Assembly: GCA_036504445.1 (NCBI GenBank)
Contig: DASXVE010000028.1
Location: 40,797-104,796 of the forward strand
DNA length: 64,000 nt
Origin: Candidatus Aquicultor sp.
GTDB lineage: Bacteria > Actinomycetota > Aquicultoria > Aquicultorales > Aquicultoraceae
Direction: 5' to 3'
Under the pieces are notes generated by a model. The model was not told where the DNA came from, searched no databases, and saw nothing but the letters and a program-made list of their open reading frames with translations. A program made the translations under genes and the position numbers. Below, one piece after another: positions 1,004-22,317 of the stretch. Within the stretch, counting starts at the first letter, position 1; every line of letters starts with the position of its first letter.

Positions 1004-1028
1004 GCGTTTGTACTCCTTTTCATACTAA

Positions 1029-1057
1029 GGGGCCCACACTTTAGACGTGTGGGCCCC
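1029..1057 (-). terminator. GC-rich hairpin between binding-protein and permease genes
   Basis: Perfect 11-bp inverted repeat (GGGGCCCACAC, 7-nt loop, GTGTGGGCCCC). On the minus strand it follows the binding-protein stop and precedes the permease. It has no long U tract in that direction, so it is more likely a partial terminator or mRNA-stabilising stem. Such stems commonly let the binding protein be made in excess over the membrane parts. Confidence 0.7.
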
Positions 1058-1080
1058 CGTTTTCTCCCTTGCCCTAAGTA

Positions 1081-1908: not shown

Positions 1909-1956
1909 CACTTCAAACCCCTTTCTGCGTATAAAAACCGAATTAATGCTGGATAT

Positions 1957-1985
1957 ATTGTGCATCTATAGGTTTGCAAAGTCAA
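1957..1985 (-). promoter_or_regulatory. Putative promoter of the amino-acid transporter operon
   Basis: On the minus strand a TTGACT -35 box (1980-1985) is followed after 17 bp by CACAAT (1957-1962). The casposon end at 2003 is only 17 bp beyond the -35 box, so the core promoter appears to be intact while anything further upstream was displaced. The -10 box is weak, so confidence is modest. Confidence 0.4.
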
Positions 1986-1988
1986 TTA

Positions 1989-2002
1989 GTTATTGGTTGA
2001 GG
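1989..2002 (+). repeat. Left target-site duplication of the casposon
   Basis: The 14-bp sequence GTTATTGGTTGAGG abuts the left inverted repeat. The identical 14 bp follows the right inverted repeat at 17330-17343. The length matches the duplications reported for casposase integration (about 14-15 bp). Confidence 0.88.
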
Positions 2003-2038
2003 GGGTATATAGATACCCAGGCCCCCCATCGCTTAAGA
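2003..2038 (+). repeat. Left terminal inverted repeat of casposon
   Basis: It begins GGGTATATAGATAC and contains GGCCCCCCATCG at 2020-2031. Read inward, it matches the right end at 32 of 36 positions; the differences are at repeat positions 15, 16, 30 and 35. Confidence 0.9.
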
Positions 2039-2054
2039 ACCGACCTTCCGCACT

Positions 2055-2084
2055 TTGATGTACTCTTGCTGTAGGAGATATAAT
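2055..2084 (+). promoter_or_regulatory. Putative promoter of the left cargo gene
   Basis: TTGATG (2055-2060), an 18-bp spacer, then a perfect TATAAT (2079-2084). It lies inside the casposon end and points toward the gene at 2147. Confidence 0.5.
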
Positions 2085-2146
2085 TTGACTAAATACAAGA
2101 TAAGGGCGAATCGGATAATACATCAGAGACGCGAAGGAGAGCACTC

Positions 2147-2962
2147 ATGTTCAGCGAACCATTTTTCCTATTGTCGCAAGAGGGGTATATCACACGGTCG
2201 TGTATCTGTACGGGCTTAACCGAGATTAGAAAGGCAAATCTTGACGACAAAGGGCGATTCTATACGGGTTTCTTTCAATTAGCAATAGGGATTGAAAGGC
2301 TTGCAAAGCTCGCCTTAATTCTTGATTACATGGTTGATAATAAGCTGACGTCCCCAGGTGAAAAGTACGTTAGACATTTCGGCCATGATGTTGAAGGCCT
2401 GTTCTTTAAGCTTAAGGAAACAGCAGAACAGAAAGGTAGCACTACGCTATCAGGATTCGGACTGGAACCCATTCCTAGCGAGATTCTATCGTTTATATCG
2501 GAATTTGCGCGAAAAACTAGATATGCAAATCTTGACGGCTTGGCGAAAGGCGTAACTGAGAAAGAGCCCGTTGCCGAATGGCATAATATATTGATGAAAG
2601 TACTTAAGCAAAACGTTGCTGCTGAGAAAATCGCAAAAATACTTGCTCAGGGTGCTGCTGTTGCTAATGCAATAAGTCCGTTTACAATTATTCATGCTTT
2701 TGATCTACAAAACAATGCGTTGACTGTAGAAGAATGGCTAACGGTTCCTCAGTTATTGGATAACGCGTCAAGATACGTTGTTTACGAAGTAACCAAGATA
2801 CTTAGACTGATGATCGATTTTACGAATGAGCTTGCATGGTCAGCACGGGAGATAGATGTTAAGAACAGCAAACATACGTGCCATATACCTGAATTACGGG
2901 AGTTCTTCTATTTTCTACCTGATGACCGGTCTTATATATTAAGGAAGAAACGCTGGCCCTAG
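2147..2962 (+). CDS. Hypothetical protein, possibly HEPN-like
   Basis: A 271-residue soluble protein of unknown function, the first gene inside the left casposon end. AAGGAG lies 7 nt before the ATG, so the start is secure. Around residues 40-90 the helical pattern IGIERLAKLALILDYM followed by FGHDVEGLFFKL resembles HEPN helical-bundle proteins, which are often RNases or substrate-binding parts of defence modules. The canonical Rx4-6H motif is not clear (only RHFGHD), so this is a weak inference. Its position suggests accessory cargo rather than transposition machinery. Confidence 0.75.
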   Translation: MFSEPFFLLSQEGYITRSCICTGLTEIRKANLDDKGRFYTGFFQLAIGIERLAKLALILDYMVDNKLTSPGEKYVRHFGHDVEGLFFKLKETAEQKGSTTLSGFGLEPIPSEILSFISEFARKTRYANLDGLAKGVTEKEPVAEWHNILMKVLKQNVAAEKIAKILAQGAAVANAISPFTIIHAFDLQNNALTVEEWLTVPQLLDNASRYVVYEVTKILRLMIDFTNELAWSAREIDVKNSKHTCHIPELREFFYFLPDDRSYILRKKRWP

Positions 2963-3055
2963 CAGATACTGTACTAGATAGGTGTGTTACATATTCACAT
3001 AATGCTATGCTAAGATATGTGACAGTAAAGCCCTTTTATTCCTAGAGGTAAATTA

Positions 3056-3691
3056 ATGGCGTTACGCTTGAACAGGTTTTCATACCGCTTTGCTGAGCAA
3101 GTATTAAATAGCAAGTTGGCACTAAAAGAAGAGGTTGAGGCCATCGCAAAAGATGCCATTAAGAAACTAGCGCTAGACCTTGGCATACTCAATAATATTA
3201 ATCTCAAAGCAAGCGATAACTTAGGGTCGTGGTGGGCAGGTCGTGAAGGCGGGCCACCCGAAGTTGCAATATATGTCGATACTTTACGTGAGGTTTACGA
3301 TACACGTGAATTAGGGGTTAGACAATTAAATCCGTCGGGTGGCAATTATGACTGGTCAGGCGTAAAAGAGCGATTCATACACGCGTTGTTCCTGTTTGAT
3401 AATCGTTATGAAATAGAGGCCGTGTCGTGGATTTATCGAGCCTGGGAGATTCTAAAAGAGGATTGGAAAACCGTCAGACCGACAGGATACCAGCAGTCGG
3501 AGCACGGTCTCCTAACCTATATAAAAGCTAACTCTGTGATAGCGCCATTCGACCCAGATGACTTTAAATATGCAATAGGTCGATATCATCGCCACGAAAA
3601 TCCTCATCCGTATTCGGGAACAATCCTAACGCCAACGGATTGCAGAGGTGCAATGCAGAAGATAATCTTATATTTTGTGGCTAACTTCTAA
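3056..3691 (+). CDS. Hypothetical protein
   Basis: A 211-residue protein I do not recognise. The start ATG has GAGGT about 7 nt upstream. It has no signal peptide or membrane span. Residues 1-60 are helical and charged; the middle is rich in aromatic residues (SWWAGREGGPPEVAIYVDT; IYRAWEILKEDW). It is in line with the neighbours at 2147 and 3759 on the same strand with short gaps, so the three may form one cargo operon. Confidence 0.7.
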   Translation: MALRLNRFSYRFAEQVLNSKLALKEEVEAIAKDAIKKLALDLGILNNINLKASDNLGSWWAGREGGPPEVAIYVDTLREVYDTRELGVRQLNPSGGNYDWSGVKERFIHALFLFDNRYEIEAVSWIYRAWEILKEDWKTVRPTGYQQSEHGLLTYIKANSVIAPFDPDDFKYAIGRYHRHENPHPYSGTILTPTDCRGAMQKIILYFVANF

Positions 3692-3758
3692 TGCAAAAGA
3701 AGCATCTTAATTTTTGCCTTGAGAAGTTATTCATAAACTGAAAGAGTACGGTCGAGCC

Positions 3759-5027
3759 ATGGATTATAAGAACGAAATAACAAGATTAGCGAGCGAGCAT
3801 CACATAAACTCAAGCGAGTTTAACGGATTGGCTTGTCGCGTTATTCTACGGGAATTTGACTTAACGCTAGATCAATTAAAGAACTCGCTTAAAGAGCTTA
3901 TTCAAGAAGATAAGATATCGATAAACTTTGGCGATAGACACCCAAACCCTTACATAAAAGCGCTACCCGAGGAACCTGCTGAGACGCAAATTGCGAAACT
4001 TGATGCATCGAATTTAGAGCATGTTTGCGTTTATCCGTCACGAACCCGTCTCGCCGAGATTGTTGATACATCTAAATACGAAAATCAGCCATTTACTTTA
4101 AGGCTTGCCTTAGGCGAGGCACAGTTAGCTCTTGCCTCATTCGATCTAACTGTCCTTGAGGTGTATAGGAATGACCCCAGGTATTATTACATAAACGATG
4201 ATATCTCGGGTTCAATAAGTATTACAGATGAATATTATCAATCAGCAGCGATGTCGGAGGCTGATAAGGTGCTTCTGGAAAGTTTCGGTTTCGCCTATGA
4301 TTCCGATTTCAATAGGGCCGTTTGCGTCTGCCTGAGATACTTAACAAGGCTTAGTCCAGAGCATCAACAAATATGGAAATCTAAAGAGCTTCAAGGCGAA
4401 TATAAGCCACACCCCGATTATTACCGACAGATAATTGGCGATTGGGGTATCGGTATATCAATTTTTGACGCCTTCATTGAAGAGCTTAAACACATAAATG
4501 CTATATGCCAACTGATTGGTCGCCCGAATCTTTTTAGGGAAGATTTTAAAGATAAGCGCAAGCCTAGAGAGTTTAGCTTCTTAATAAGGCCAACGCTGAA
4601 GGAATTTAATGACTTTATTCATCTACTGGATAAGCTCTTGTCTGATAACATTAATCGTAAATTCTTCCTGAACGACGTCTCGTTTGAACGTGAAGAAGAG
4701 CGTGGAGACGGAAAAATCGTAATCCATCCTAAGGGTACGGTTCAAATTCTAGAGGAATGGCTTAGACTGAAACTCAAAGCAGAAGACCCAGACCCAATCG
4801 ACTACATCATCAATCCTCTAAAGAAGATTAGAAAGCTAAGGCAACGCCCCGCTCACGCCGTAGATGATAACGTGTTTAATCAAGAATATTTCAAGGAGCA
4901 GAGAGAGCTGATAATGGAAGCATATGATAGCTTAAACTTAATTAGACATTTTCTAAATAACCATCCTAAGGCACGGAGCTATAAGATTCCCGATAATCTT
5001 GACTCGGGAAAGATATGGGTATATTAA
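3759..5027 (+). CDS. Hypothetical protein with possible C-terminal HEPN-like domain
   Basis: A 422-residue soluble protein. The N-terminal 90 residues may form a small winged-helix-like unit (FNGLACRVILREFDLTLDQL). The C-terminal part (about residues 340-410) contains KKIRKLRQRPAHAVDDN followed by long helices, the kind of R...H arrangement seen in HEPN domains of abortive-infection or Apea-like proteins. Key residues would need modelling. The ribosome-binding site is weak. It is probably the last gene of the left cargo operon. Function unknown; phage or plasmid defence is a reasonable guess from its place in a mobile element. Confidence 0.7.
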   Translation: MDYKNEITRLASEHHINSSEFNGLACRVILREFDLTLDQLKNSLKELIQEDKISINFGDRHPNPYIKALPEEPAETQIAKLDASNLEHVCVYPSRTRLAEIVDTSKYENQPFTLRLALGEAQLALASFDLTVLEVYRNDPRYYYINDDISGSISITDEYYQSAAMSEADKVLLESFGFAYDSDFNRAVCVCLRYLTRLSPEHQQIWKSKELQGEYKPHPDYYRQIIGDWGIGISIFDAFIEELKHINAICQLIGRPNLFREDFKDKRKPREFSFLIRPTLKEFNDFIHLLDKLLSDNINRKFFLNDVSFEREEERGDGKIVIHPKGTVQILEEWLRLKLKAEDPDPIDYIINPLKKIRKLRQRPAHAVDDNVFNQEYFKEQRELIMEAYDSLNLIRHFLNNHPKARSYKIPDNLDSGKIWVY

Positions 5028-5100
5028 GAAGCCCTGCTTAACTGCTGTCTTTCGTTTTCTTTGTCTCACCTCGAATACTCGGCACGAGCAGTCTGGACTC

Positions 5101-5412
5101 CTAATCCCTAACTCGCATAAACAGGCTCACAACTCTTAGAAGGGTATCTCTCGCATCAGTGGTAAGATCATCACTTGAGCGTATCGCCAATTCAAGATTA
5201 CAGGCTACACCAGCCTCTTCACCTTTGATGAGATAATCGGTTGTCACGCCTAAAGTATTCGATAGGTCTGCTAGCTTTTCAGCTGATGGAGACCTTCGAT
5301 CAAGCTCCCACAGCGATATGAGTTGGTCTGTTACATCTACTCTTGCCGCGAGCTCCTTTTGGGTAAAACCGAGGCCCTCTCGCCGCGTTCGTATTCTGCT
5401 TCCTATAGACAT
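5101..5412 (-). CDS. XRE-family transcriptional regulator
   Basis: Small (103 residues) Cro/C1-type helix-turn-helix protein. The HTH spans about residues 1-60: IGSRIRTRREGLGFTQKEL, then TDQLISLWELDRRSPSAEKL. A short C-terminal tail follows. The start is the ATG at 5410-5412 with AGGG upstream; a longer frame to 5481 adds residues that do not look like an XRE protein. It is transcribed divergently from the lipoprotein gene at 5604 and may control that gene, itself or the left cargo. Such regulators are frequent in mobile elements. Confidence 0.88.
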   Translation of the reverse strand: MSIGSRIRTRREGLGFTQKELAARVDVTDQLISLWELDRRSPSAEKLADLSNTLGVTTDYLIKGEEAGVACNLELAIRSSDDLTTDARDTLLRVVSLFMRVRD

Positions 5413-5603
5413 ATGCAACCCTGCTTTGTTTGCTCTTGTGTTATTAAAGACAACGTAGCAATGGGTTTTGGTGTTGAGCAACGACTTTACATATTGTTGA
5501 GTCCAAGCACAACGTACGCTATACTTTATGGTAGCCCCTTGTTAGCCAGAGGGCTCTGCGATTGCCATCCATAAATCGATGCATCGTCGTGGAAGGTCAG
5601 ACC

Positions 5604-6560
5604 ATGAAGCTTAAGGAGCAAGACGTGATTCTTACCCGTAGAAATGTTGGTCAACTCTGCAAGATCGCTCTCATCCTCTTAGGTATAGTTATGGTTATTT
5701 CTTTAAGCGGCTGTAGAGGTGCCAATGATAGTGAAAAAACGGTAAGTCAGGGAAAGATTGATCTTGGTAAACAAGAAATCGAGTATAAAGTGAAAGAGAA
5801 ACCTCCTACGAGCGAGCCCGCTAACTCAGCTCCTATCTCATACGAAGGGAAATCGCCTCGTTTTGTTAATGCAGGAGAACCTTTCACTTGCAATTTTTCA
5901 ATCCAGAACAACACCGACATCCCGATTATTGCTGCAAGTATAGCTTTTAAAGATTGCTCGATGATAAAAGGGATTGGGGCTGATAATGGCTGGAGCTATA
6001 ATCCGGGAGGTAACTTAGCTTTGCCAAGCGTAAGCATCCAAAATATTGATATTGAGAGGGGTTCTAGTCTTCAATCAAAGGCAAGCATCATGATACTTGA
6101 GCCTGGCACATATCAATTCGAGATGTTGCCAAGTGTTAGAGCGGGCTCCTGGAAAGCATTGGGGGCTTATGTAGTCACAGTCATTGTCAACGACACTAAT
6201 GGAGCCCAACAGACGCGGTTAAATATTGAGGCGGCAAAGAACAATGCTAAAGAGCTAGATCAAATCAATTCCGATATTCGACGCGTTGATTTTGATATTG
6301 ATCGGGTTACGTCAGAAATTGAAAATAGAAAAAACAACATAGACGAAATCAATGGAGAAATTAAGGGTGTACAAGAAGAGATAGCAGATGACCCTGAGCA
6401 TGCTAGTGATCACAGCGTGCAAATTGAAGATTACAAAAACCGAATTCAGGACAATAAAACCACTTTGGATGAAGCGCAAAAGCAATTAAGAAGTCTAACC
6501 GATCAGAAGAATAAGTTATTAAGAAGAAAACAACAGCTAGAGGCAAGCTCGGGCGATTAA
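5604..6560 (+). CDS. Predicted lipoprotein with C-terminal coiled coil
   Basis: A 318-residue envelope protein of unknown role. The N-terminus is charged, then hydrophobic (IALILLGIVMVISL) and ends in the lipobox LSGC. Residues about 85-195 form a beta-rich domain (FTCNFSIQNNTDIPIIAASI). Residues about 200-318 are a long charged heptad pattern, a clear coiled coil. The ATG at 5604 is preceded by GGAAGG at 7-nt spacing. It is convergent with the polymerase gene. As casposon cargo it is unusual; it might alter surface properties or block competing elements. Confidence 0.8.
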   Translation: MKLKEQDVILTRRNVGQLCKIALILLGIVMVISLSGCRGANDSEKTVSQGKIDLGKQEIEYKVKEKPPTSEPANSAPISYEGKSPRFVNAGEPFTCNFSIQNNTDIPIIAASIAFKDCSMIKGIGADNGWSYNPGGNLALPSVSIQNIDIERGSSLQSKASIMILEPGTYQFEMLPSVRAGSWKALGAYVVTVIVNDTNGAQQTRLNIEAAKNNAKELDQINSDIRRVDFDIDRVTSEIENRKNNIDEINGEIKGVQEEIADDPEHASDHSVQIEDYKNRIQDNKTTLDEAQKQLRSLTDQKNKLLRRKQQLEASSGD

Positions 6561-6599
6561 TGCTTGCAACTTGCCCCTAGCGATTAAGTTTGTTTTGTA

Positions 6600-9500
6600 T
6601 TATAGGTACGTAGCCAAGTCCAACCTGCTTATTTTGCCATTAGCAAGTTCAATTCTTGCTCTCTCTAGATTCTGTGCGAATGTGTTCTTCGAAATATTCC
6701 ATCGTTCGCACGCATAATTAATATCAACGTACTCGGGAAAATCTGTTATTTTACTCTGCAAGAAATTCTTATATGGTTTATTCATTTTCGCCTCATTAGA
6801 ACGAGGCATTAATTTGTATTTAAATATTAACGGGTTATCTTTTACCTGCATGATGTACCATTTATTATGTATTTCCGCCAATAATTGGGCCTTGTTATTA
6901 CCTAAAGATTTTTCCTTGCGATAGAAAAACCGTGAAATATCAAGCAACGGGAACTTAAATTGTTTACCGCCAATTCGCACGATTACGGTTAATTTATTAA
7001 TATCTATCGCTTCTTTTTCAGGGGTGTAATTACCAAATACGCGATATAAAGCGAGCCGTGAAATTAATACATCATCCACTTTTTTAATTTCCGAGGGTGT
7101 AAATCGTTTTTCGTGCAGGGATTTATTAATAATAGATTTATTTATATTCCAAACGGCGGCAGCCTTATTTAACGTTAAATGCTCAGGAAATACTGTTAGT
7201 TTGGTAGTGATAACGCCGTTTGAATAAATTAATTCGCCAATAATATTTTTTATTTCTGGGTTTTTAATTACTCGTTTATTTATTAATTCAGCGTAATTAT
7301 TATCAGAAATAAAAAACCATTCGCCGTTCTGTTTTACCAGGAGCTTTAATTTAAACCCTTTTTTATTCCAAAACGGCACGTAATAATAGCAATCGAATTT
7401 ATATTTACCGTGCAATTCTTTTATTTCATAAACGGTAATATTTTTCGTCAATTTATTCTTTTCAATTGCAGCAATAATAATTTGCAAAATACCGATTAAT
7501 TGTTTCGGACAACTTTCGCTTTTTAATTGTTTTTGTAATACTTGCTCAGAAATACCGTTATTTATTAAATGCGCAGCGATATTACTAATACCAATATCTT
7601 TTGCTTTTGCAATTATCTTTTCTCTAGTCTGATTAATATGAGCACAGCAGGTAGTATCATCTACGCCAAAGACATTTGCCTCTTCGAGCTCATTTGCTTC
7701 TTTTCCGATATAGGCAACATCCAATGCTTTGACATGCGTTCGGTACAGCGTACCTTTATACTGTTCAGGACAACTCTCGCCAGTATCGGTTATAAATTTT
7801 AATTCACGGTGGTATGCATAGCGCTCGACTACATCGCCATAAGTTTTAAGCAATCTATGCTGCGAGAACGGGTCTCGCATAAGTGTTCTTAAATAAAGGC
7901 GGTTTCCCGTTTTGCGATCTACTAAGAATTCGGCAACGTCTTCAATGCTGCCCGGCTCGGTAAACGGTGAGATCGGCGTGACCTCTTCAGCCATATCGTA
8001 CTTGTCCTTGTACCACACACTCATAAAGTTAAAGGGCTTAATCTGCTTACAATACGGCTTGCCTTTATTAATATTGCTAAACGAGTTATATAGATGCGGC
8101 TTGGTAACGGAGTGTTGACCCATTGCAAAGTAATCAAACCAGGAGGGTCTATCAAAGGCAAAGCCAAGCTCCTCTGAGAGAATAAAGCGCCAGATATCTT
8201 CAACCCAATCGCTGTCTCGATCTTCTGCAAAACCCTTCTTGATAGGGTTTTTCAAATGCCCAAGCCCGTGATCTGATTTCTTGCGGATAACGGGCACACC
8301 ATCAATTACGTTAAAGAGCACATAGCGCTTCGATGAGACCATATAGCAGTAAAGCGGCTCTAAATCGCTAGACAACCCCGCTTTGGGGTTACTCCAGTCC
8401 TTGAGCGCGTAGTTTTCATCTTCTATCTTTAAGATGCTACCCGTAATGATCTCTTGGTTATAGGGATTAAGCGAGGCAAATCGATCAACGATTGTTCGCG
8501 CAACACAAAGTTCTTCCTCGTTATTAATCGCCATTGCCATTGAATCGGTGTCGCAAAAGACGTAAGGGAGCCCCGCATCGGATACGCTTTTTTCAATCAT
8601 GGCAAGTATGAGCCGGGAGGCTCCTGTAATCATAACCGCCGTTAAGGGGTTGGTGAAAAAGCCGGTTTCCTCAACCCTCTCTACTGCAACGGGAAAGTGC
8701 TCTAACCCATAGATATCGACTTGCTCAGTTTCATCGAGCTCGTTTCGGTTGAGCTCGATATAGATGCCGTATGACGTTGAGTTGGCAAGTATTTTCAAGA
8801 ACAGCTGCAGGCTGCTTAAGCCCGCATAATCAGGGTTCTCTTTACCAAGCTCTTTCATGTTTGCCTTTACGAGTGATCGCTGTTCAATAACAGTTTTAAA
8901 GAAATCCTCACTCGCTGGGTCTACCTTGACCTTGCCCTGTAAGCTCAAAGGTTTGAGCCCTGCCTGCGGTGTGCCGGGTATAAAGCGGAAAGCCTGTACG
9001 ATATTCGGAGTTTTACCCGTTAAGAGTTTTGAGACGATTACATCAGCTAACGTGTACCACATGGGTTTGTCCATAGTTAGTTTATTGAGTCCGATCTGAT
9101 ACGTCTCGCTGTACTTGGCGCGAATGGGCAAAACGTCGCCTTGTGGGATGATCTGCACTAAACCGGGAATCTTTGTCCAGATATCTTTATCAAACAAGGC
9201 ATCAAGAGTTATCCTGTCAATGAACTCCTGCACTTCGTCCGTTGCCTCAACTGCTTCAATGCGCTCAGCAGTAACCCAGTCCCAGAGTTTTTGCAAGCTA
9301 AAGACGGTTGGATACATCGAGACCACATCAGTGTAGAGCACGCGCTGCATGGTTTTTCTGATGCGGCACTCGCTTCTTCCGCCATAGTATGCCGCCATAG
9401 CAAAGCCTAAGATATTCTTATCGAAATCAGGCTGCTTTTCTAAAAATGGCTTGATGCCCATCGCCTTTAAGTATGCTTTTCCAATGCTTGCTGGCGAGTA

Positions 9501-10412: not shown

Positions 10413-10416
10413 TGTT

Positions 10417-10962
10417 TTAAGTCTCCATAAAATAGGTTGATAGCTTCTTAATTGTTGCTTCGTGCTCGTGGACGAACTCATTAAAGAGCGCTTCAAGCTC
10501 AAAGTCGGGGTTGAGCCTGCCGGTAATCGAGTCCTGCACGAGCTTAATGAAGATAACCCCCGTTACCCCGACTTGGGTTACGAGTTGTCCTACCGTCATC
10601 CCAGACTCAGGAAAATCGATTACCGTGTCTTTGTCGGAATTGGCAAGCTGTGCTCCGTATACAAGGAAGTTTTCCGCAAGCATGGCAAAGCCATCCGTTA
10701 TTGCCATTAAGAACGCAATAAACTTCTGGTACGGCGTGCGGCCTTCCAATAGAAGCTCCTCTAGCCAATCGGCTTTCTTGCGCTCATAGATGGTGTGACA
10801 ATTGAGGCAAATGGTCACCGTTGGCCCCTCGCGTTTGCCGATTAAGTGATGCGCCTCAAAGGGAACCTCTTTGAGTACAGCAGCGCGGCTTTCACCGCAG
10901 ATAAAGCAATGCGTCTCGCTAACCCTGTTTCGTGCTCGCTGTGACGCGATTAGTTCATTCAT
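10417..10962 (-). CDS. HNH endonuclease
   Basis: A 181-residue HNH nuclease. Cysteine pairs C19-x2-C22 and C52-x2-C55 frame HHL at 38-40, with H56 next: the layout of an HNH finger with structural zinc (CFIC, EAHHLIGKREG, CLNCH). The start is the ATG at 10960-10962, 5 nt after GGAGG. It sits between the polymerase and the 10965 gene with gaps of only a few bases, so the three are one operon. HNH nucleases are a recurrent casposon component; the role (host cutting, replication intermediates or competition) is not known. Confidence 0.9.
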   Translation of the reverse strand: MNELIASQRARNRVSETHCFICGESRAAVLKEVPFEAHHLIGKREGPTVTICLNCHTIYERKKADWLEELLLEGRTPYQKFIAFLMAITDGFAMLAENFLVYGAQLANSDKDTVIDFPESGMTVGQLVTQVGVTGVIFIKLVQDSITGRLNPDFELEALFNEFVHEHEATIKKLSTYFMET

Positions 10963-10964
10963 TG

Positions 10965-11660
10965 TTACCTCCATAAATCGTAAATGTGTAAAATATCGGT
11001 TTCTCCCGATTCGATGTGTCTTCCAAGAATCGTGCGGTCAGTAATAAAGCGATGGCGTTTGCCAAGAGAATCGGTCACGTACTTTCCTTTAAACTTTTCA
11101 AGCGCTGAGGCGTCGCCCTTTTGCTCGAAGAGCTTTACCGCATTGTGGTAGTCGCCAATCTTGCTCGCTTGCCGTGCCCCTTTTACCGTGATTGAGTACT
11201 TGCCGTAGCGGTCATAGAGAAACATCGGGCGCTCTAGGTTGTCGGTTTGCTTGAAATAGCCTTCCGGGGTAAGAGCGCTTCTGAAAAGCTCTCTAATCGT
11301 TCGCTTATCAGCAAGCTCTGAAAATAATGGTGACTCAGAGCGACGGGCAAACATCTCATCAAAACTGACGCTTTTTCCGGAAAGCTCGGCAAGACGCTTA
11401 GCCTCATCTCGCATCTCAAAGCCGATCTCATAGTTGGTGCGCTCTTTACTGGTAAGGCGTGAGAAGATTGGCGTTTGCCTAGATCGTGCTTGTGGCCTTG
11501 CGCTTATGAGCTCGCCGTGTCCTCTGGCTTGTTTGAGGCTGATATCAAGCCCATAAGTCTCAGATACCTTTAGAACTCGCCTTGAATATGGGTCGTTAAG
11601 CGGCTTTCCGTGCTCGATGCGCTCTTCGAGCCATGCTCGTACTGTTTTTGCTTGTGCCAT
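10965..11660 (-). CDS. Hypothetical casposon-core protein
   Basis: A basic 231-residue protein I do not recognise, first gene of the polymerase operon. The start ATG (11658-11660) is preceded by AGGGAGGTG, the strongest ribosome-binding site in the element. It is rich in Arg/Lys with long helices (LEERIEHGKPLNDPYSRRV; FEMRDEAKRLAELSGKSVSF) and no zinc or membrane motifs. Its fixed place beside HNH and PolB makes it a candidate replication or DNA-binding partner. It is transcribed divergently from the MerR-like gene. Confidence 0.75.
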   Translation of the reverse strand: MAQAKTVRAWLEERIEHGKPLNDPYSRRVLKVSETYGLDISLKQARGHGELISARPQARSRQTPIFSRLTSKERTNYEIGFEMRDEAKRLAELSGKSVSFDEMFARRSESPLFSELADKRTIRELFRSALTPEGYFKQTDNLERPMFLYDRYGKYSITVKGARQASKIGDYHNAVKLFEQKGDASALEKFKGKYVTDSLGKRHRFITDRTILGRHIESGETDILHIYDLWR

Positions 11661-11791
11661 GTTTTTCACCTCCCTTAAGAGTGGGCTTTCGTAGTGGCGC
11701 AAACATGCGCCGTTTATCCTTACAAGCCATAGCCTACCAGGGGGTTTGAAAAAACATGGACGTTTTCAGGTACCGCTGTAAAATAGGGTGT

Positions 11792-12841
11792 ATGTATTCA
11801 GAATGGTTGACCAGCGAAGAGCTGTTTCAAAAACTCGAAGAAAACAATTTAGAAGTTACATCTGTTCAGCTTAAGAAATGGCGGGAGCGCAAGGTTTTGC
11901 CTGAAATTAAGCAGGTATCCCTTGGTAGAGGCAAAGGAACCGAGACCCGCTACCCCCCTGAAACGGTCGAACGAATCCGTCGAATCTGCGAGCTTCAAGA
12001 GGATAAACGCTTTAAGAAGAATCTAGAGTTTTTGCGCTGGCAACTCTGGCGCGAGGGTTATCCAATTAGCTATGAAGTCATTATCGAGACCATCGAGACC
12101 GAAGTCATTGGTGCAATTCAAGAGCTACGCATCTACAAGCGCGATCCTCTAAGCTCTATCATTGCACTTGCGAAAGAAGCGGCGAAGAATCCCAAACTTA
12201 TCCTTAAGTTTCCTGGCGTTAGCATAAAGCGAATTGGGTTGTACGGTATAGGCAAGGTTACATCAATTCTGCTTGAAGCGGTTTTACAGAAAAGCGATAT
12301 CTTAACTTATACGGAAATCGTCGAAGGAGAACCCAGCCCGGCCTATATTGTCGAGCGAATAATGCGGCTTGATAGAGCGCGGACTGATACCGTTGGCGAT
12401 GTCGGCCCCTGGCTTAAAGGGCCACCTGAGGAGCAATTTCAAGGATTTTCCGATATCATGAGCTATCCCGCCATGAAACGTGCCTTGCGACACGCCAGTG
12501 AAGCCGACATTGAGCAAGCAAGAGACGACCTCCTATTCTTTACCGATACATTGTGTTTCATCTTGGGCATTGTTGCCAAACTATGTGACAGAAACGCGTT
12601 CGGTTTTAGAATTGCCGCCACGTATTTGAGGCGCTCGCAAAACTCGCTATTTCAACAGGCTGGCCTTACCCTCATGGTAACATCTATGCGGAAGAGCCAT
12701 TTTAAGCACAACCTTATTGCTTTTCGGCAAGGCGTAGAACAAGGATTGGATAACTATATTCAGATAGATGAGTATATAAAGGAGCACGGTATAGCCGCGC
12801 TAAAAGAATTGCACAATAACCCCGCTTACCAGCAGAATTAG
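11792..12841 (+). CDS. MerR-like helix-turn-helix protein
   Basis: A 349-residue protein. The first 70 residues form a MerR-like winged helix (SEWLTSEELFQKLEEN, then VQLKKWRERKVLPEIKQ, then TRYPPETVERIRRI). The remaining 280 residues are helical and unrecognised. The start is uncertain: the ATG at 11792 begins right where the domain begins and has TAAAAT 7-12 nt upstream, which would make the mRNA leaderless; an in-frame ATG at 11756 has AGGGGG at rather long spacing. It lies upstream of cas1 on the same strand (65-bp gap) and divergent from the polB operon, so it may regulate both or act in end recognition. Confidence 0.8.
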   Translation: MYSEWLTSEELFQKLEENNLEVTSVQLKKWRERKVLPEIKQVSLGRGKGTETRYPPETVERIRRICELQEDKRFKKNLEFLRWQLWREGYPISYEVIIETIETEVIGAIQELRIYKRDPLSSIIALAKEAAKNPKLILKFPGVSIKRIGLYGIGKVTSILLEAVLQKSDILTYTEIVEGEPSPAYIVERIMRLDRARTDTVGDVGPWLKGPPEEQFQGFSDIMSYPAMKRALRHASEADIEQARDDLLFFTDTLCFILGIVAKLCDRNAFGFRIAATYLRRSQNSLFQQAGLTLMVTSMRKSHFKHNLIAFRQGVEQGLDNYIQIDEYIKEHGIAALKELHNNPAYQQN

Positions 12842-12842
12842 C

Positions 12843-12871
12843 TTATAACTACCGCTCGTTTAGGGTATAAT
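12843..12871 (+). promoter_or_regulatory. Putative cas1 promoter
   Basis: TTATAA (12843-12848), a 17-bp spacer, then TATAAT (12866-12871), ahead of the cas1 ATG at 12907. It would allow cas1 expression independent of the MerR-like gene. Confidence 0.5.
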
Positions 12872-12906
12872 TATAAGTATATAACTCCTGGTAAAAGGCG
12901 GTCTTT

Positions 12907-14238
12907 ATGGATAAACGAGCACTGGTCTTAACCGGCCACGGTTTAGATATACGGGTGCAATACGGTGGGCTTAAAATTAGAGATGGATTCCCCCACAAAC
13001 AAGAGATTCGAGATACCTTCATCAATCGCGGCCTTAACGATATTGAGCATATCGTGATCTTAGGGCAAAGCGGCAGCATCACCTTTGATGCTCTCAAATG
13101 GATTGCCGATCAAGATATCGCGGTTACCTTTGTTGATTATAACGGCGAGCTTCTAACAGACTTTATTCCCAAAGAGCATACCTCGGGCGTAACAAAGAGA
13201 AGACAGGCATTAGCAACGCAAGAGCTGAACCTAAAGATTGCAACGTGGCTGCTGCAGGAAAAGTTTAAAGCGCAAGCAGAAACGCTCAAACATATTTCAC
13301 AGCGATACCAGAAAACCACATGGCTAGACACTGCAAGGGTAACGACAATTCAGGCTGCGGTTGCCTTCATTGCGGAGAAAGTAAGAGAGCTTAAGACCGC
13401 TGATGATGTTAATAATCAGCGAGCCCAAGAAGCGATAACCGCTGCTTATTATTGGGAGTGTTTCTCAGGCATTCCACTAATGTGCGTACAAACAAAGAAA
13501 ATCCCGCAAAATTGGCTAAGTCTTAACAAACGTCATTCACCAAAGACGCATTCACCTCGCAAAGCAATAGACCCGTTTAACGCTGCGCTTAACTATCTTT
13601 ATAGTGTGCTTGAGGTAATGATCAAACATGCTGCAATAGCGAAGGGCTTAGATGTCGATTTTGGAGTTATGCATGCGGACCGATCTAATAGAACCTCACT
13701 TGTCTTTGACCTCATGGAGCCCATCCGCCCGAAAGTCGATGTGCTGCTCTTAGATTGGTTCATGCAGCAAACCTTTGAGCCAAAGGATTTCTTTGAAACC
13801 CGCGAAGGCGTATGCCGCATAAGCCAAGACATTTCAAAAGAGATCATCCCGCTTCTTAACGATCTTAACCCGAACATTACAAAGGTTATAAAAGAGTTTG
13901 CAGGGTTCTTCAAAGATAAGCACACGATTGCAATATCTGTTAGTGATCAGAGCTTTCGAGCTGGTAAGGGAGAGAACAAAACGGTTTGCTTGTGTTGCAA
14001 TGAAGAGTTTATCCCCAAGAAGCCCGGACAGCTCTATTGCTCAGAGCAGCATAAGAATAAACACCATCGGCAAATGTTGCGGGCAGAGAGAAAAGAGAAC
14101 GGACAATGTATTCAATGTGGCAAGCACATGGATGGTCCTCGCATTGGGGCTAACGGTAGGAAGGTTTATTCTTGTGAAGAGTGCTCTGGTTATTATAGTG
14201 AAAAGTTTAAGAAATGGAAGCAGCTCCAGCAGTCATGA
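12907..14238 (+). CDS. cas1: Cas1 endonuclease / integrase (casposase)
   Basis: A 443-residue Cas1. The N-terminal beta-rich domain opens LVLTGHGLDIRVQYGGLKI. The metal-binding triad is intact: E175 (QEAITAAYYWE), H256 (GVMHADRSNRTSLVF) and D268 (VFDLMEPIRP). Cas1 here should join the element's ends to target DNA, as shown for archaeal casposases. It is longer than CRISPR Cas1 (about 330): residues 355-443 add two zinc motifs (C361/C363/C364/C378 and C401-x2-C404, C423-x2-C426) in place of the C-terminal HTH of many casposases. There is no Cas2 or CRISPR array nearby, and it lies inside inverted repeats with a target duplication. An alternative as orphan CRISPR Cas1 is therefore unlikely. Confidence 0.95.
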   Translation: MDKRALVLTGHGLDIRVQYGGLKIRDGFPHKQEIRDTFINRGLNDIEHIVILGQSGSITFDALKWIADQDIAVTFVDYNGELLTDFIPKEHTSGVTKRRQALATQELNLKIATWLLQEKFKAQAETLKHISQRYQKTTWLDTARVTTIQAAVAFIAEKVRELKTADDVNNQRAQEAITAAYYWECFSGIPLMCVQTKKIPQNWLSLNKRHSPKTHSPRKAIDPFNAALNYLYSVLEVMIKHAAIAKGLDVDFGVMHADRSNRTSLVFDLMEPIRPKVDVLLLDWFMQQTFEPKDFFETREGVCRISQDISKEIIPLLNDLNPNITKVIKEFAGFFKDKHTIAISVSDQSFRAGKGENKTVCLCCNEEFIPKKPGQLYCSEQHKNKHHRQMLRAERKENGQCIQCGKHMDGPRIGANGRKVYSCEECSGYYSEKFKKWKQLQQS

Positions 14239-14275
14239 TTTAAACATCTCGCGTCTGATTGCAAGATACCTCCTC

Positions 14276-14328
14276 AAGCATTCAGCGTCTAAATGGCTGT
14301 ATTTGCAACCAGTAGACGCTGAATGCTT
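14276..14328. repeat. Perfect 16-bp inverted repeat after cas1
   Basis: Arms 14276-14291 and 14313-14328 (AAGCATTCAGCGTCTA and its exact complement) flank a 21-nt loop. It lies between the convergent cas1 and 14370 genes. It could act as a bidirectional terminator, but the stem is only moderately GC-rich and has no U tract on either side, so a recombination or protein-binding site is also possible. Confidence 0.75.
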
Positions 14329-14369
14329 TGTGGTTAAACGAGTGTGATTAATTTATCGCTTCAAGAATT

Positions 14370-15836
14370 TTAGGAAGCGGTTTCCTCGTCATCATATCTC
14401 GTTTCGCCAGGCCTTTTATTGAAGTCTTTAAGCGTTTGCTCAAGCTCATTGAGCTCTTTTCTAGTGTAGCGAGAGCCTGGCAAGCTGCTCGCATATCTAG
14501 CCATATCAGATACTGTCTTGCCCTTTACGCCAAAAACTAACCCTTTGAATGTATCTATAAATGCCAATAGGTTGCCTTTAACGTATTTCTTGGCCTTGCC
14601 ATCATATAGTACAACTTCATTAAGGCTGTAGTCATAATCTTGCACCCAGACATCGGAAGTCCGTGTCTTAGTTGCAAGGTTTCTCACGACTGTCTCTGCC
14701 GATCTCCGCCTATGGGCATCGCTTAGCTTGCTAATGTTACTTATTGAGATAATGTTGCTGAGCGACATCGGGTCGATTAGGGGCTCGTCGAAAATCAAGC
14801 CGCCAAGACTGAGAACTAAATCGCTATGGCTGCTGAATAATTGTACACTCTTGGTATCAACGTGTTCTAACATGTATCCTTTATGCCGATTATTCGCAAT
14901 ATCCGCCTTAATAGATAGCCCTTTTACCTCAAGGGGTTTACTTAACGCAGACGCTACATATTGCATGAAATCTGGCTCATCAATGTACCTTGCAGTTGGC
15001 CATGTTATTGCTTCATCCTTTTGAAGCTGTTCGACAATACCATGTAACCCTCGGCTCTTTAAATGCCTCGCAATTTTCATCGTTGGAGCATGTTTCTTAC
15101 CCTTGCGCTCTTCAACGTATAAGTTCATTTGAGCGATCAAGGCACTTTGTTGCTTCTCCAAGGTTTGCAACTCTGCGATAATTGCCTCATCATCCTTGCT
15201 TCTTAGGCTTCTTTTCTTGAAATAATCCTGTAACAGCTGCTCAGCACGGTTAGTTACTTGGTCGAATTGCTTAGCTAACTCAAACTCTACAAGGATTGGA
15301 TACTGCTCTTGGTGTGTTTTCCAACCCTCAACAGTTTTTCTTATCCCAGGGATTCGCGTATTAAGGCGATTAAGACGCCTTACGTGCATCTGACCAGATA
15401 AGATTCGCTCAAGATCAGCACCTATCTTATCCGTATTAATCCTAAAGTGCTGAACGCATCTTGAACCAACAATGAGATGCTCGTTTGTGAGATCATTGGA
15501 GATGTAACAGATATTTTCGATAGTCCTATTGCATAAACTACATTTAACAATCTCACCCTCAGCTGCAACCCGCACGCGTGTTGCATACCATTCGTCTTTC
15601 GCCCTGTTACGCACGTCAGGGTAAACGTTATCGAAGAAGTTCTGTACCGGAAATGGTTGTTCTTTAACCAATTCCTCAGTAACTCTCTCATTTAGCTCTA
15701 GAAACTCGTAAATTTCGGGGTAATCTTCGATAATCTTGCTTTTCAAAAGTAGTGCTCGTTCTTTTCTTAAAACACGAAGTGCCGTAAAAACCACGCTCCT
15801 TATTAGGTCAAGAACTGCAGATAAAGCTATTACCAA
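14370..15836 (-). CDS. Hypothetical protein with zinc-ribbon motif
   Basis: A protein of about 488 residues. Around residues 98-130 a zinc-binding unit is readable: CSLCNRTIENICYISND, then VGSRCVQHF. This C-x2-C ... VGSxCV pattern occurs in proteins of phages and plasmids, but I cannot assign a function. The rest is helical and charged, with FKGLVFGVKGKTVSDMARYA near the end. The upstream end of the frame is a TTG (15834-15836) with poor ribosome-binding site; a start a little further in is possible. It probably shares the promoter at 16065 with the small gene before it. Right-hand cargo of the casposon. Confidence 0.72.
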   Translation of the reverse strand: MVIALSAVLDLIRSVVFTALRVLRKERALLLKSKIIEDYPEIYEFLELNERVTEELVKEQPFPVQNFFDNVYPDVRNRAKDEWYATRVRVAAEGEIVKCSLCNRTIENICYISNDLTNEHLIVGSRCVQHFRINTDKIGADLERILSGQMHVRRLNRLNTRIPGIRKTVEGWKTHQEQYPILVEFELAKQFDQVTNRAEQLLQDYFKKRSLRSKDDEAIIAELQTLEKQQSALIAQMNLYVEERKGKKHAPTMKIARHLKSRGLHGIVEQLQKDEAITWPTARYIDEPDFMQYVASALSKPLEVKGLSIKADIANNRHKGYMLEHVDTKSVQLFSSHSDLVLSLGGLIFDEPLIDPMSLSNIISISNISKLSDAHRRRSAETVVRNLATKTRTSDVWVQDYDYSLNEVVLYDGKAKKYVKGNLLAFIDTFKGLVFGVKGKTVSDMARYASSLPGSRYTRKELNELEQTLKDFNKRPGETRYDDEETAS

Positions 15837-15853
15837 TAATCTATTTCGACGCT

Positions 15854-16045
15854 TTATAACTCGAAAGCGGTAATAAGGTATTTATGTAGCGCTTTTAATG
15901 TTTCGGCATTGTATTGGGTGATCAAGTTGTGAGAGTTTGCTAATACCGGGGTGTTAGCTATCCCTATAGAGGCTGTAGCGATCTCATCGTTGACATATAC
16001 GGCGGTATTTAATTGTTTTGGGTTGCTTAATGGTTTTTGCAACAT
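15854..16045 (-). CDS. Small hypothetical protein (63 aa)
   Basis: Short frame starting MLQKPLSNPKQLNTAV. It has no recognisable domain and no clear Shine-Dalgarno sequence. It is listed because a good promoter (16065-16092) points straight at it and it precedes the zinc-motif gene on the same strand. It may equally be the leader of that gene. Confidence 0.35.
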   Translation of the reverse strand: MLQKPLSNPKQLNTAVYVNDEIATASIGIANTPVLANSHNLITQYNAETLKALHKYLITAFEL

Positions 16046-16064
16046 ATAGAATTATTTTGTATTT

Positions 16065-16092
16065 ATTATACCATTGCTCGCCAAGCGATCAA
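16065..16092 (-). promoter_or_regulatory. Promoter for right cargo genes
   Basis: On the minus strand TTGATC (16087-16092), a 16-bp spacer and a perfect TATAAT (16065-16070). It would drive 15854-16045 and 14370-15836. Confidence 0.55.
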
Positions 16093-16235
16093 CTACAATT
16101 ACCCAGTTTGTTATGAAAATCTGTCGTAATGCCTGGTTAATGCAGCTAATAATACCCAAACAAATGTTCTATTGCGGATTAAAAGAGGTTCGTCTTTAGG
16201 CTTGCCAGTTGGCGTGTTATACATAAAGTCCAACC

Positions 16236-17087
16236 TCATGCAGGACATTCTGATAGTAAACGTATAGCCATATGAATAGTCGCTAGGTATATGTAAAATA
16301 TCCAACTTAGCCAAACCGGATTATAATCGCTCTTTTGCTTGCTATTATGATGCCTAATGCCGAAATTATTGGCGATATTGAAAAGAGCGTTTTCATCTTC
16401 TGTTCTTAAAACTTCTTTCAATCGCGGTCTTAAGAACTCAAAGATATCTGCAAGGTCTCTGACTGCGTCCCTTCTCTCTTGGGCAGATGACTGCCGCCTT
16501 CGATATTTCGCTATCGCTAGATGAATCCGCTTATCGACATTTTTAGCGTCATAGTTTGGGATATCTGCGTCTAGCAAGTAATTGAGACCTGAATTACCCT
16601 TGATCTGGATTTCACCATTAGCTGAAATCTCATAGCCTTCTTTGTAGTCACGCAAGAAATCGTTTACTTCATAGCGTAATTCTGCCTGTGCAGGCACTTT
16701 ATCGAAAAGGTTATAGTGCCAGCCACAATTACAATAATCGTGATAATAACCATCAACAGGTTTCGAGATTAGATCGTAAAGCAGCTCGATCGTGTCAAAG
16801 ATATCTTCCTCGGAATACTCTTTGTACTTATCGGCAATGGGCCACAGATGCGATTTTCGCAATTTTCTAAAGACGTAAGCTTCAGGGTTTGACCCCGTAG
16901 AGCCAGGCAACCAACCCCCAGGCGTATCTACACAAGCATATCCGAATGCCTCTTGGAAATACGCATTAACCTCAAACATAGAGTAGACACTGAAAAAGAG
17001 CTCCCTTAACATGTCTAAATCTAGGTTTGCTTTGGGATTTGTTCCGACTCTCATTGAGTAGTATTGGCGTTGGTACAAATCATCCAT
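16236..17087 (-). CDS. Hypothetical protein, HEPN-like C-terminus
   Basis: A 283-residue protein, outermost right cargo gene. The last 60 residues (FNIANNFGIRHHNSKQ, then WLSWIFYIYLATIHMAIRLL) follow a pattern I recall from a widespread uncharacterised family whose C-terminal helices may be HEPN-like; this is inference. A Cys-rich turn (DYCNCGWHYNL) occurs near residue 115. The start is uncertain: ATG 17085-17087, or the GTG four codons earlier. No signal peptide. Likely accessory, perhaps defensive. Confidence 0.68.
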   Translation of the reverse strand: MDDLYQRQYYSMRVGTNPKANLDLDMLRELFFSVYSMFEVNAYFQEAFGYACVDTPGGWLPGSTGSNPEAYVFRKLRKSHLWPIADKYKEYSEEDIFDTIELLYDLISKPVDGYYHDYCNCGWHYNLFDKVPAQAELRYEVNDFLRDYKEGYEISANGEIQIKGNSGLNYLLDADIPNYDAKNVDKRIHLAIAKYRRRQSSAQERRDAVRDLADIFEFLRPRLKEVLRTEDENALFNIANNFGIRHHNSKQKSDYNPVWLSWIFYIYLATIHMAIRLLSECPA

Positions 17088-17293
17088 AGGGACGTCCACA
17101 TCCTAGTAGCTATCGGTTGGCAGCATCAACACCATAGTATCATATGTCAGCTCAGTTCTATGACCGCCAGCTCTGGGAAGTTTCAATTACTTAGGATACG
17201 GCTAATTTCTTCTCGCAAGGATTAATAACATGGCGGGTTAACGAAATACGAAGCGGTCTATATGTCAATTTGATACATGGGTATCCGCACGCA

Positions 17294-17329
17294 TTTTAAA
17301 CGATGGGGGGCCTATGTATCTATATACCC
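17294..17329 (-). repeat. Right terminal inverted repeat of casposon
   Basis: Read on the minus strand it starts GGGTATATAGATACATAGG and continues CCCCCCATCG, matching the left end at 32 of 36 positions. The ~200 bp between it and the last cargo gene (17088-17293) show no gene. Confidence 0.9.
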
Positions 17330-17343
17330 GTTATTGGTTGAGG
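17330..17343 (+). repeat. Right target-site duplication
   Basis: GTTATTGGTTGAGG, identical to 1989-2002, starting immediately after the right inverted repeat. The next bases (GGTATGCC) are host sequence. Confidence 0.88.
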
Positions 17344-17580
17344 GGTATGCCGATAGTATTATAGGTTTCGGAGGAGTTTTAAGTCTTGTCCTGGAGGCAT
17401 TATTGGCCCGGCCGTTAAAGCAAGACCCGTTGTTGCGTGGGCAGCAAGTTCGTCGGGTTCACACTCTCCTTTCTCTTCGTTATATACCCTGTTAAAAGGA
17501 TAACTAAGTGATTATAGTATAAATCACGGAACTTATGAATGACCGGAACGGGTAAACTTTTCATCTGAAAGAGAGCTTCC
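17344..17580. other. Host intergenic region right of the casposon
   Basis: 237 bp between the target duplication and the deacetylase gene. I see no tRNA or other RNA gene here, although many casposons sit at tRNA ends. An AT-rich stretch with TATAGTATAAAT near 17514-17525 may be the -10 region of the deacetylase promoter. Confidence 0.4.
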
Positions 17581-18462: not shown

Positions 18463-18616
18463 AATTGCAAACTTTACTTTCTGGTGACACCATAAATGGG
18501 GTACGTTACCTCTTCGTTTTCAAAGTTTAGAATTGCGGAATCAATATTGTATTACAAACAGAGACTGTGGATACAATCATATAAACAAGCAATGCCTTAA
18601 TTATCAGGAGCGTAAT

Positions 18617-21985: not shown

Positions 21986-22317
21986 TAGCGCCAATCTCCG
22001 AGCGGGTATTTCGTTACTTACCTCTATACCGTTGATTCTAAAGCAGTGGTGTGTCCCTGCCAAGGATGTGCAAAGAGACAACCATGCAATGCTACTACAA
22101 TTATAGGTAAACTGCGTCACCGTGTAAATCATCGTGATTACGGTTATTGATGCCTTTGTGTTTCGGTTGCTTATACGGGTAGCCGAAGAATATCCCGCAA
22201 ACTTTAAGTTAACGGGCTTTCGCCGAATGTGCGCGATTTTTTCGCGGTTTAGGGAAAATAAGTAACAATGAATGAAACTTTAAGCAGCGGGATGTTGAGC
22301 GATAGGATGCTGATGGT
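21986..22317. other. Intergenic region between divergent sensor genes
   Basis: 332 bp between divergently read sensor genes. It should hold promoters for both, but I see no convincing box pair, hairpin or small gene. Confidence 0.4.

Follow-up and report, generated by a model that had tools for sequence, protein, structure and literature searches.

Does a stretch of about 15.3 kb in the genome of the bacterium Candidatus Aquicultor sp. represent a complete casposon, or does its cas1 gene belong to a CRISPR locus or to a provirus? Casposases, the Cas1 integrases of casposons, are proposed ancestors of the CRISPR integrase. The locus was analysed within a window of 64,000 nt, which covers positions 40,797-104,796 of contig DASXVE010000028.1 (GCA_036504445.1); all coordinates below refer to this window. 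Because inverted ends, a 14-base duplication and the genes of a polymerase and a stand-alone Cas1 occur together at positions 2003-17329 (15,327 bp), this stretch, with its five core genes, is very probably an intact, self-replicating casposon with Cas1 as the predicted integrase.

The left terminal inverted repeat (2003-2036, plus strand), with the tip GGGTATATAGATAC, and the right one (17296-17329, minus strand) form arms of 34 nt that were 91% identical in the computed repeat search. The first-pass annotation had described repeats of about 36 bp with 32 of 36 positions matching; reading by eye over 36 nt gave the same count, and the repeat search bears the claim out. The perfect 14-bp direct repeat noticed earlier at both junctions was also found, as GTTATTGGTTGAGG at 1989-2002 and 17330-17343 (both plus strand). 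With up to one mismatch allowed, this sequence occurs in the 64 kb at these two sites only (0.01 expected). The identity of the two copies stretches to 16 bp (GTTATTGGTTGAGGGG), the left copy running to 2004, so that 2 bp fall inside the left end. When window positions 1-20000 were subjected to 200 dinucleotide shuffles, the best inverted-repeat score was 21, compared with 28 for the real sequence, and a repeat score of at least 12 combined with a flanking duplication of at least 8 appeared in 2 of the 200. Judged against these shuffles, the ends and the duplication exceed chance. The casposon superfamily is described as having terminal inverted repeats of 25-602 bp and a target duplication with a median of 15 bp (PMC4046053), and the 34-bp repeats and 14-bp duplication agree with this published description of casposon ends. 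The G+C content of the element is 43.2%, compared with 48.6-49.7% in the flanks.

The casposase, a stand-alone Cas1 of 443 aa (12907-14238, plus strand), was recognised by its Pfam match (PF01867, 3.2e-46), its catalytic residues and its place in the tree. The residues E175, H256, D268 and E271 are present, which upholds the earlier description of an intact Cas1; these columns are invariant across 30 aligned sequences, the window protein included, and align with identical letters in the M. mazei casposase 6opm. The fourth of them is E in the window protein and D221 in E. coli Cas1 (PMC4046053). The same 6opm was the best solved relative (2.7e-30), while the best CRISPR Cas1 matched at 4.8e-18. 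The C-terminal tail carries three CxxC pairs, zinc-ribbon-like by eye, and no HTH match was obtained for the protein in Pfam. A Cas1 phylogeny had been proposed as a check. In a tree of 75 rows, the window Cas1 fell in a clade of 21 rows (support 100/100) apart from CRISPR Cas1. The casposase side of this tree comprised 49 rows (99/95), with M. mazei inside and none of the 24 CRISPR references, and grouping of the window Cas1 with these 24 was rejected by the AU test (p-AU 8e-42). Within a tree that holds no AceAut, Henriciella or family 1, 4 and 5 references, a group of 48 rows takes in the Nitrosomonas loci and leaves M. mazei outside (100/98).

The family-B DNA polymerase is encoded at 6600-10502 (minus strand), with a likely start ATG at 10412 and the motif C CDTDS. 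Its exonuclease and A, B and C motifs are intact. The 1300-aa ORF alone had no polymerase match in Pfam, and as a single sequence it matched nothing relevant among the solved structures. A 970-aa piece matched PF03175 at 1.8e-7, and a profile of 11 polymerase sequences matched solved family-B polymerases at 7.5e-6. The structure model (pTM 0.77) resembles phi29 and other family-B polymerases; phi29 polymerase came first in Foldseek with a TM of 0.55 by target, the TM by query being 0.28-0.36 across the 50 matches listed. Motifs, family match, profile and model thus all agree with the polymerase assignment made at first sight. The CDTDS motif is that of the PolB_CDTDS group, which is described as including the A. 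boonei casposon polymerase. The C-terminal extension matches an HTH family of phage excisionases and, below the cut-off, HTH_59. No relatives of the polymerase were matched on plasmids.

Three further core genes were recognised, and all five core ORFs are open. The HNH nuclease-like protein (10417-10974, minus strand) has C23, C26, E40, H43, N58 and H60 invariant in eight sequences, the window copy included, and a weak PHROG match (2.2e-4); the window copy gave no Pfam match, and the HNH nuclease reported at first reading is borne out by these residues and the PHROG match. The C2 protein, whose fold was not recognised (10965-11702, minus strand), is encoded by the first gene of the HNH-polymerase operon and is conserved in other bacterial casposons; its model (mean pLDDT 70.7) had no match among solved structures at E 0.001. 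The MerR-like HTH protein (11756-12841, plus strand) is encoded upstream of cas1.

The genes towards either end are probably cargo and include at least one that is defence-like. On the plus strand, the ORF of 271 aa (2147-2962) had no family match, and those of 211 aa (3056-3691) and 422 aa (3759-5027) have no recognised function. The first has plasmid relatives (25-31% identity among 5 listed of 139 records), the second has no plasmid match, and the third has three plasmid relatives at 30-39% identity. These ORFs are followed by an XRE/HTH_3 regulator (5101-5481, minus strand; PF01381, 2.2e-14) and an ORF of 332 aa (5562-6560, plus strand) with a single membrane-like segment and a C-terminus resembling a coiled coil. 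On the other side, both on the minus strand, lie an ORF of 488 aa with one CxxC and no recognised function (14370-15836) and an AbiJ_NTD4/PDC-S32-like ORF that is likely defence-related (16236-17099). No serine or tyrosine recombinase or other transposase was found when 12 ORFs were searched in Pfam and 10 each in NCBIfam and PHROGs. The exception in this search was the excisionase-type HTH on the polymerase tail (PHROGs).

The core cassette was defined by all-against-all BLASTP over 17 loci, the window included; Cas1 was present in 16, the polymerase in 14 (in some loci as short pieces), C2 in 9, HNH in 8 and the MerR-like protein in 7. Among 17 related loci inspected for ends, including the joined G254 contig, both ends and a duplication of 14-15 bp were located in 7, which together with the window gives eight elements; in the other 10, of which some are truncated at the edge of a contig, both ends were not located. 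The tip GGG(G)TATA/TATG is common to six of the eight elements, and that of M. mazei is similar. The host is an actinomycetote, probably close to Ca. Aquicultor; the nearest named match is Ca. Aquicultor sp. (71%). Among 296 genomes from this phylum, 6, its own included, carry a Cas1 of this kind, and for each of the other five a polymerase relative was present in a retrieved stretch. Bacillota, Nitrosomonas and alphaproteobacteria also have named relatives. Bacterial casposons, which the first-pass annotation had called few, therefore look less rare than stated. Plasmids gave 47 records with Cas1 matches; the 20 listed were 22-28% identical, 18 being annotated as CRISPR cas1 and two unannotated. 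Viral contigs contained one relative (L090). No literature pairing 'casposon' with 'Aquicultor' was found.

Comparison with known systems places the element among the bacterial, family-3-like casposons as a new, well-formed member; its clade has a casposase tail resembling a zinc ribbon and a polymerase extended by an HTH. The family 3 elements NitAL212-C1 and AceAut-C1 (Krupovic 2014) are likewise described as bacterial, with a core of Cas1, polymerase, HNH and HTH proteins; the window element has the bacterial host, the HNH protein and an HTH protein, a putative counterpart of the conserved one that family 3 is described as having in common with family 2. Cas1 of AceAut-C1, known here by description only, is fused to a zinc-binding domain (PMC4046053), which resembles the tail of the window Cas1. 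The Nitrosomonas loci L028-L030 have Cas1, polymerase, HNH and C2 in common with the element; their Cas1 is 28-29% identical to that of the window, whose clade is separate (100/100). Unlike family 3, the window Cas1 gave no C-terminal HTH match, and the polymerase bears a long HTH-containing C-terminal extension. Two counterparts belong to the same Cas1 clade at 41% identity, namely Desulfotruncus (Desulfotomaculum) arcticus L025 and the Desulfosporosinus MAG L026. The L025 polymerase is 44% identical to that of the window and equally long (1301 aa). Both hosts are Bacillota, and on their incomplete contigs the ends were not found.

MetMaz-C1 of M. mazei (family 2) also combines a stand-alone Cas1 integrase, a polymerase and a 14-bp duplication, and its end GGGATATAGG (PMC10359463) is similar to the window tip GGGTATATAG. 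Its host is archaeal, whereas that of the window element is bacterial. Family 2 Cas1 bears a C-terminal HTH (PMC4046053), in contrast to the CxxC pairs of the window protein, so that neither this HTH nor the euryarchaeal host of family 2 is found here. Casposons of M. mazei are described as often lying at tRNA-Leu genes, while no tRNA genes were found in the window. Family 5 casposons are described as mostly lacking a polymerase (PMC9755687), which the window element possesses. Family 1 is characterised by a protein-primed polymerase; the observation bearing on this was the Foldseek ranking of phi29 polymerase with the TM values given above. A bolder reading is that the element, with its zinc-ribbon casposase devoid of HTH and its CDTDS polymerase with a long HTH C-terminus, is a still mobile member of a casposon family of its own and that GGG(G)TATAG is an ancestral signal reaching from archaea to bacteria; this is a tentative proposal and rather doubtful.

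Insertion is predicted to proceed by the same chemistry as the storage of CRISPR memory. A Cas1 tetramer would bind the frayed 3' ends (...TATACCC-3') of the excised or newly copied element and attack both strands of the target at positions some 14 bp from each other; repair of the resulting gaps by the host would yield the duplication. Copying of the element would fall to the CDTDS polymerase, and the HNH, MerR-like and C2 proteins are predicted to contribute to the choice of target, the processing of ends or regulation. The A. boonei casposase integrated the pentamer TCCCC, with a 14-bp duplication in 26 of 28 clones; shortening of the C run by one base was tolerated, and A in place of C at the fourth base from the end weakened integration (PMC6614799). 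The window tip has CCC preceded by A, while in five of the eight elements the run is CCCC or longer. This A was weighed against the casposon reading in view of the A. boonei effect.

The cas1 gene of the element could also be considered a stray from a CRISPR locus or part of a CRISPR adaptation module, as the host carries its own CRISPR-Cas loci and the window Cas1 exceeds the cut-off that NCBIfam TIGR00287 sets for cas1. The two Cas2 matches of the genome (C17, PF09827; C8, PF09707), however, each adjoin another Cas1 on other contigs, and neither Pfam family was matched on the contig of the element. Nowhere in the window does a 20-mer recur at a distance of 40-90 bp, as CRISPR repeats would, and the phylogeny rejects placement with CRISPR Cas1. 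The lack of Cas2 and CRISPR noted earlier was thus confirmed, and this origin is graded as already refuted, with a negligible probability. The 92 host spacers gave matches of 13-18 bp only, which is the chance level. It is also very improbable that the element is a Cas1-bearing provirus of the Toil-like type with a double-jelly-roll capsid. There is a precedent, since Streptomyces 'family 3 casposons' are described as having been reclassified once a divergent capsid protein was recognised (Yutin et al. 2018, PMC5894146). These proviruses belong to the same phylum as the likely host and also encode Cas1 and a polymerase. Several window ORFs have no assigned function, including those of 422 and 488 aa; one plasmid relative of the former is annotated as an AAA family ATPase, and weak matches to tape-measure proteins were obtained for the 332-aa protein. 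These matches, however, sit on its coiled-coil-like stretch, the 422- and 488-aa proteins were unmatched in the phage collection, and a Walker A motif was present in none of the 12 proteins, hence no packaging ATPase is recognisable. The ten proteins searched in PHROGs (Cas1 and XRE left out) gave no capsid or packaging matches, although a very divergent capsid protein could escape detection; the Streptomyces proviruses are described as encoding a capsid protein. The polymerase, moreover, is of the CDTDS type known by description from a casposon. Four lines support the complete casposon proposed earlier: the two ends, the duplicated target site, the position of the Cas1 on the casposase side of the tree and the core genes.

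The element could also be an immobile remnant, descended from a casposon but no longer able to move; this reading bears on its present state only and is compatible with the identity given above. The genome has a single copy of the element and hence gives no indication of a recent transposition inside it, and the two ends diverge by 9%. Against this stand the open core ORFs, the intact catalytic motifs of Cas1 and the polymerase, the ends and perfect duplication still in place and a coding share of 91%, and loss of movement is accordingly considered unlikely. We infer mobility, as the search yielded neither an empty-site allele nor a strain sharing these flanks. Of 20 genomes, three (its own, G013 and G018) contained the transporter gene of the left flank, and none of 10 same-family genomes did at E 0.001, while the right-flank deacetylase was present in all 20, its own included. 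The two flank genes were not adjacent in the inspected stretches of six relatives, so no empty site was obtained.

The casposases described as bench-tested (A. boonei, M. mazei and N. koreensis) are archaeal among the descriptions found. The complete bacterial element and the seven comparable elements with defined ends supply exact substrates for integration assays, by which end recognition by archaeal and bacterial casposases becomes comparable. A missing casposon factor may be represented by the conserved C2 protein, a candidate open to testing. Targeting of terminators was considered as a rule and rejected: the window site had a z of -0.05 and was not a strong terminator-like hairpin, and such targeting is therefore not claimed for it. 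Among the seven rebuilt sites that were folded, the G254 site being left out, strong terminator-like hairpins (z < -5) were found at three, L027, L057 and L119.

The element at 2003-17329, taken for a complete casposon in the first-pass annotation, is bounded by genuine inverted and direct repeats. The inverted repeat arms (2003-2036 and 17296-17329) are 34 nt long and match at 91%. The direct repeat GTTATTGGTTGAGG is found at 1989-2002 and 17330-17343; it extends to 16 bp if the two outermost bases of the left end are added, 14 bp being the portion outside the end. The inverted-repeat score of the real sequence was 28, versus a best score of 21 and a mean of 14.5 in 200 dinucleotide-preserving shuffles of window positions 1-20000, and any inverted repeat scoring at least 12 and flanked by a duplication of at least 8 bp occurred in 2 of these 200. 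The only other match of the left 60 bases in the 2.57-Mb genome is the right end. The element comprises 15,327 bp with a coding share of 91%, and its G+C content is 43.2% versus 48.6-49.7% in the flanks. The annotation is correct: the element is unusually complete, and it belongs to an already described kind, as one more member. The novelty lies in the host group, as far as the literature searched shows, in the distinct casposase clade and in the series of equivalent ends now available from bacterial elements. That the element is mobile is inferred only, because no empty site was found.

The two ends enclose twelve ORFs. Five genes form a central cassette, in which the overlapping, operon-like genes of the conserved core protein C2 (10965-11702), an HNH protein and the DNA polymerase (6600-10502) occupy the minus strand, and those of a MerR-like HTH protein and Cas1 (12907-14238) diverge from them on the plus strand. 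When 17 loci, that of the window among them, were compared all against all, Cas1 was present in 16 (running off the contig in L090) and the polymerase in 14, with just short pieces in L057 and L122; C2, the HNH protein and the MerR-like protein were found in nine, eight and seven loci, respectively. According to Krupovic et al. 2014 (PMC4046053), most family 2 casposons share a core of Cas1, PolB, HNH and two HTH proteins, and HNH and an HTH protein are common to three of the four family 3 elements. C2 possibly corresponds to the second of the two core HTH proteins. A few of its nine aligned members show a weak HTH match and three weakly match HigB_toxin, the window copy showing neither; for the latter, no Pfam match and no solved fold matching the predicted model were found. 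At 9102-15369 of the locus L057 lies a 6.3-kb element that has Cas1 and both ends and in which just a 129-aa fragment of the polymerase is found; this is possibly a decayed or non-autonomous casposon.

A single-sequence Pfam scan of the polymerase returned just a C-terminal HTH below the cut-off; in PHROGs, weak hits to DNA polymerases were obtained, along with a hit of the tail to an excisionase HTH. Its proposed membership in family B was borne out by an 11-sequence profile matching solved family-B polymerases (7.5e-6), by the match of a 970-aa piece to PF03175 and by the structure model (pTM 0.77), for which phi29 was matched first, followed by other family-B enzymes. The exonuclease and polymerase motifs are intact. 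Motif C reads CDTDS, which gives the PolB_CDTDS group its name; the A. boonei member of this group is described as casposon-encoded in PMC7544198. For nine of the 29 close Cas1 relatives (P0002-P0030), the longest contig has a length also given for a polymerase relative among the 120 listed, a coincidence suggesting that the two genes may travel together.

Cas1 is intact, as had been claimed: E175, H256, D268 and E271 are all present, and these catalytic columns are invariant across 30 aligned sequences including that of the window. The tail contains three CxxC pairs and showed no HTH match in the Pfam scan. The best solved relative is 6opm, which we take to be the M. mazei casposase (2.7e-30), followed at a lower level (4.8e-18) by 4n06, presumably an A. 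fulgidus CRISPR Cas1. The former identification is consistent with PMC6977970. In a tree of 75 rows, from which one long-branched Asgard row had been removed beforehand, the window Cas1 fell into a 21-row clade (support 100/100) with Desulfotruncus, Desulfosporosinus, a Peptococcaceae MAG, a MAG labelled Bathyarchaeia and metagenome proteins. This clade, all 15 casposon loci supplied and M. mazei are contained in a 49-row casposase side (99/95) holding none of the 24 CRISPR references, which were picked as loci lacking a polymerase relative and not each by an adjacent array. The supports were confirmed by split-by-split reading without re-rooting, and an earlier 76-row tree retaining the Asgard row agrees. 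The window Cas1 stands apart from CRISPR Cas1, its forced grouping with the 24 references being rejected (p-AU 8e-42). Two database proteins, P0080 and P0083, were placed on the CRISPR-reference side.

The reported absence of Cas2 and CRISPR at the element was also upheld. Both Cas2 matches of the genome lie elsewhere (PF09827 at contig C17, PF09707 at contig C8), each beside another Cas1, and both contigs bear long repeat arrays. No 20-mer recurs at 40-90-bp spacing within the window, and the 92 host spacers have no match to the element longer than 14 bp. The two large host arrays (L123:10915-14175 and L124:6586-9152) have 50 and 43 repeats and lie on contigs with cas1 and cas2.

Cas1-bearing proviruses are recorded for Streptomyces (PMC5894146), and a provirus of this type is an improbable alternative reading of the element. 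The proteins of the element that were searched contain no Walker A motif and no capsid match, which argues against this reading, although one plasmid relative of the 422-aa cargo protein (3759-5027) is annotated as an AAA family ATPase and a very divergent capsid could escape detection. In the favoured casposon, the rightmost cargo gene (16236-17099) matches a PHROG family (3e-72), a PADLOC candidate (1e-10) and, weakly and below the cut-off, AbiJ_NTD4. Together with a relative on a Methylobacterium plasmid that adjoins an abortive-infection gene, these matches suggest a putative defence role.

Both ends and a 14-15-bp duplication were recovered, after trimming of the overlap with the ends, in 7 of the 17 related Cas1 loci (six directly, one after joining contiguous stretches), some of the other ten being cut by contig ends. 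The elements with defined ends number eight: those of the window, L027 (labelled Alphaproteobacteria), L057 (labelled Micavibrio, Bdellovibrionota by NCBI), L028 (Nitrosomonas), and L118, L119, L120 and G254 from the phylum of the window host. Six of them start with GGG(G)TATA or GGGGTATG; L120 (GGGAAGAGAGATAGG) and G254 (GGGATAGGAGATAGG) retain just GGG and a later GATAGG. M. mazei MetMaz-C1 starts with GGGATATAGG and has a 14-bp duplication (PMC10359463). For the A. boonei enzyme, the integrated 3' pentamer is TCCCC; changing the fourth-last base to A weakened integration, and shortening of the C run by one base was tolerated (PMC6614799), so the window end ...ATACCC-3' is close to this optimum, not identical with it.

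The nearest named relative of a hydrogenase subunit encoded in the flank comes from Candidatus Aquicultor sp. (71%), of the Actinomycetota; the assignment of the host to this phylum is well supported, and that to the class is likely. A Cas1 hit to the casposase profile at 1e-20 was obtained in 6 of 296 sampled genomes of the phylum, counting that of the window, and in each of the other five a polymerase relative lies in a stretch that was examined. The genome G097 contains three casposase-like Cas1 genes (contigs C13, C24 and C36), two of which (L118 and L119) belong to complete elements inserted at separate sites. The 11.3-kb phage contig MT836291.1, which comes from human faeces and has no annotation, contains a remote Cas1 match (24%) at 3901-4656.

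The element is flanked on its left by a leftward-oriented gene for an amino-acid-type solute-binding protein and on its right by a polysaccharide deacetylase gene. At 1985-1957 on the minus strand, a sequence weakly resembling a promoter (TTGACT-17-CACAAT) starts 3 bp from the duplication, and the insertion may, as a guess, have spared this promoter; two such matches were found in the stretch searched versus 0.8 expected. Strong terminator-like hairpins (z below -5) form three of the seven rebuilt element sites (L027, L057 and L119); the rebuilt window site has no such hairpin. L119 immediately follows a tmRNA gene (gene at 193-549, duplication at 559-572), and the left end of L090, at 6631, adjoins a similar stem, as judged by eye. 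Near the window insertion site, two large PAS/GAF sensor proteins are encoded at 20174-26505, one with a terminal SpoIIE domain.
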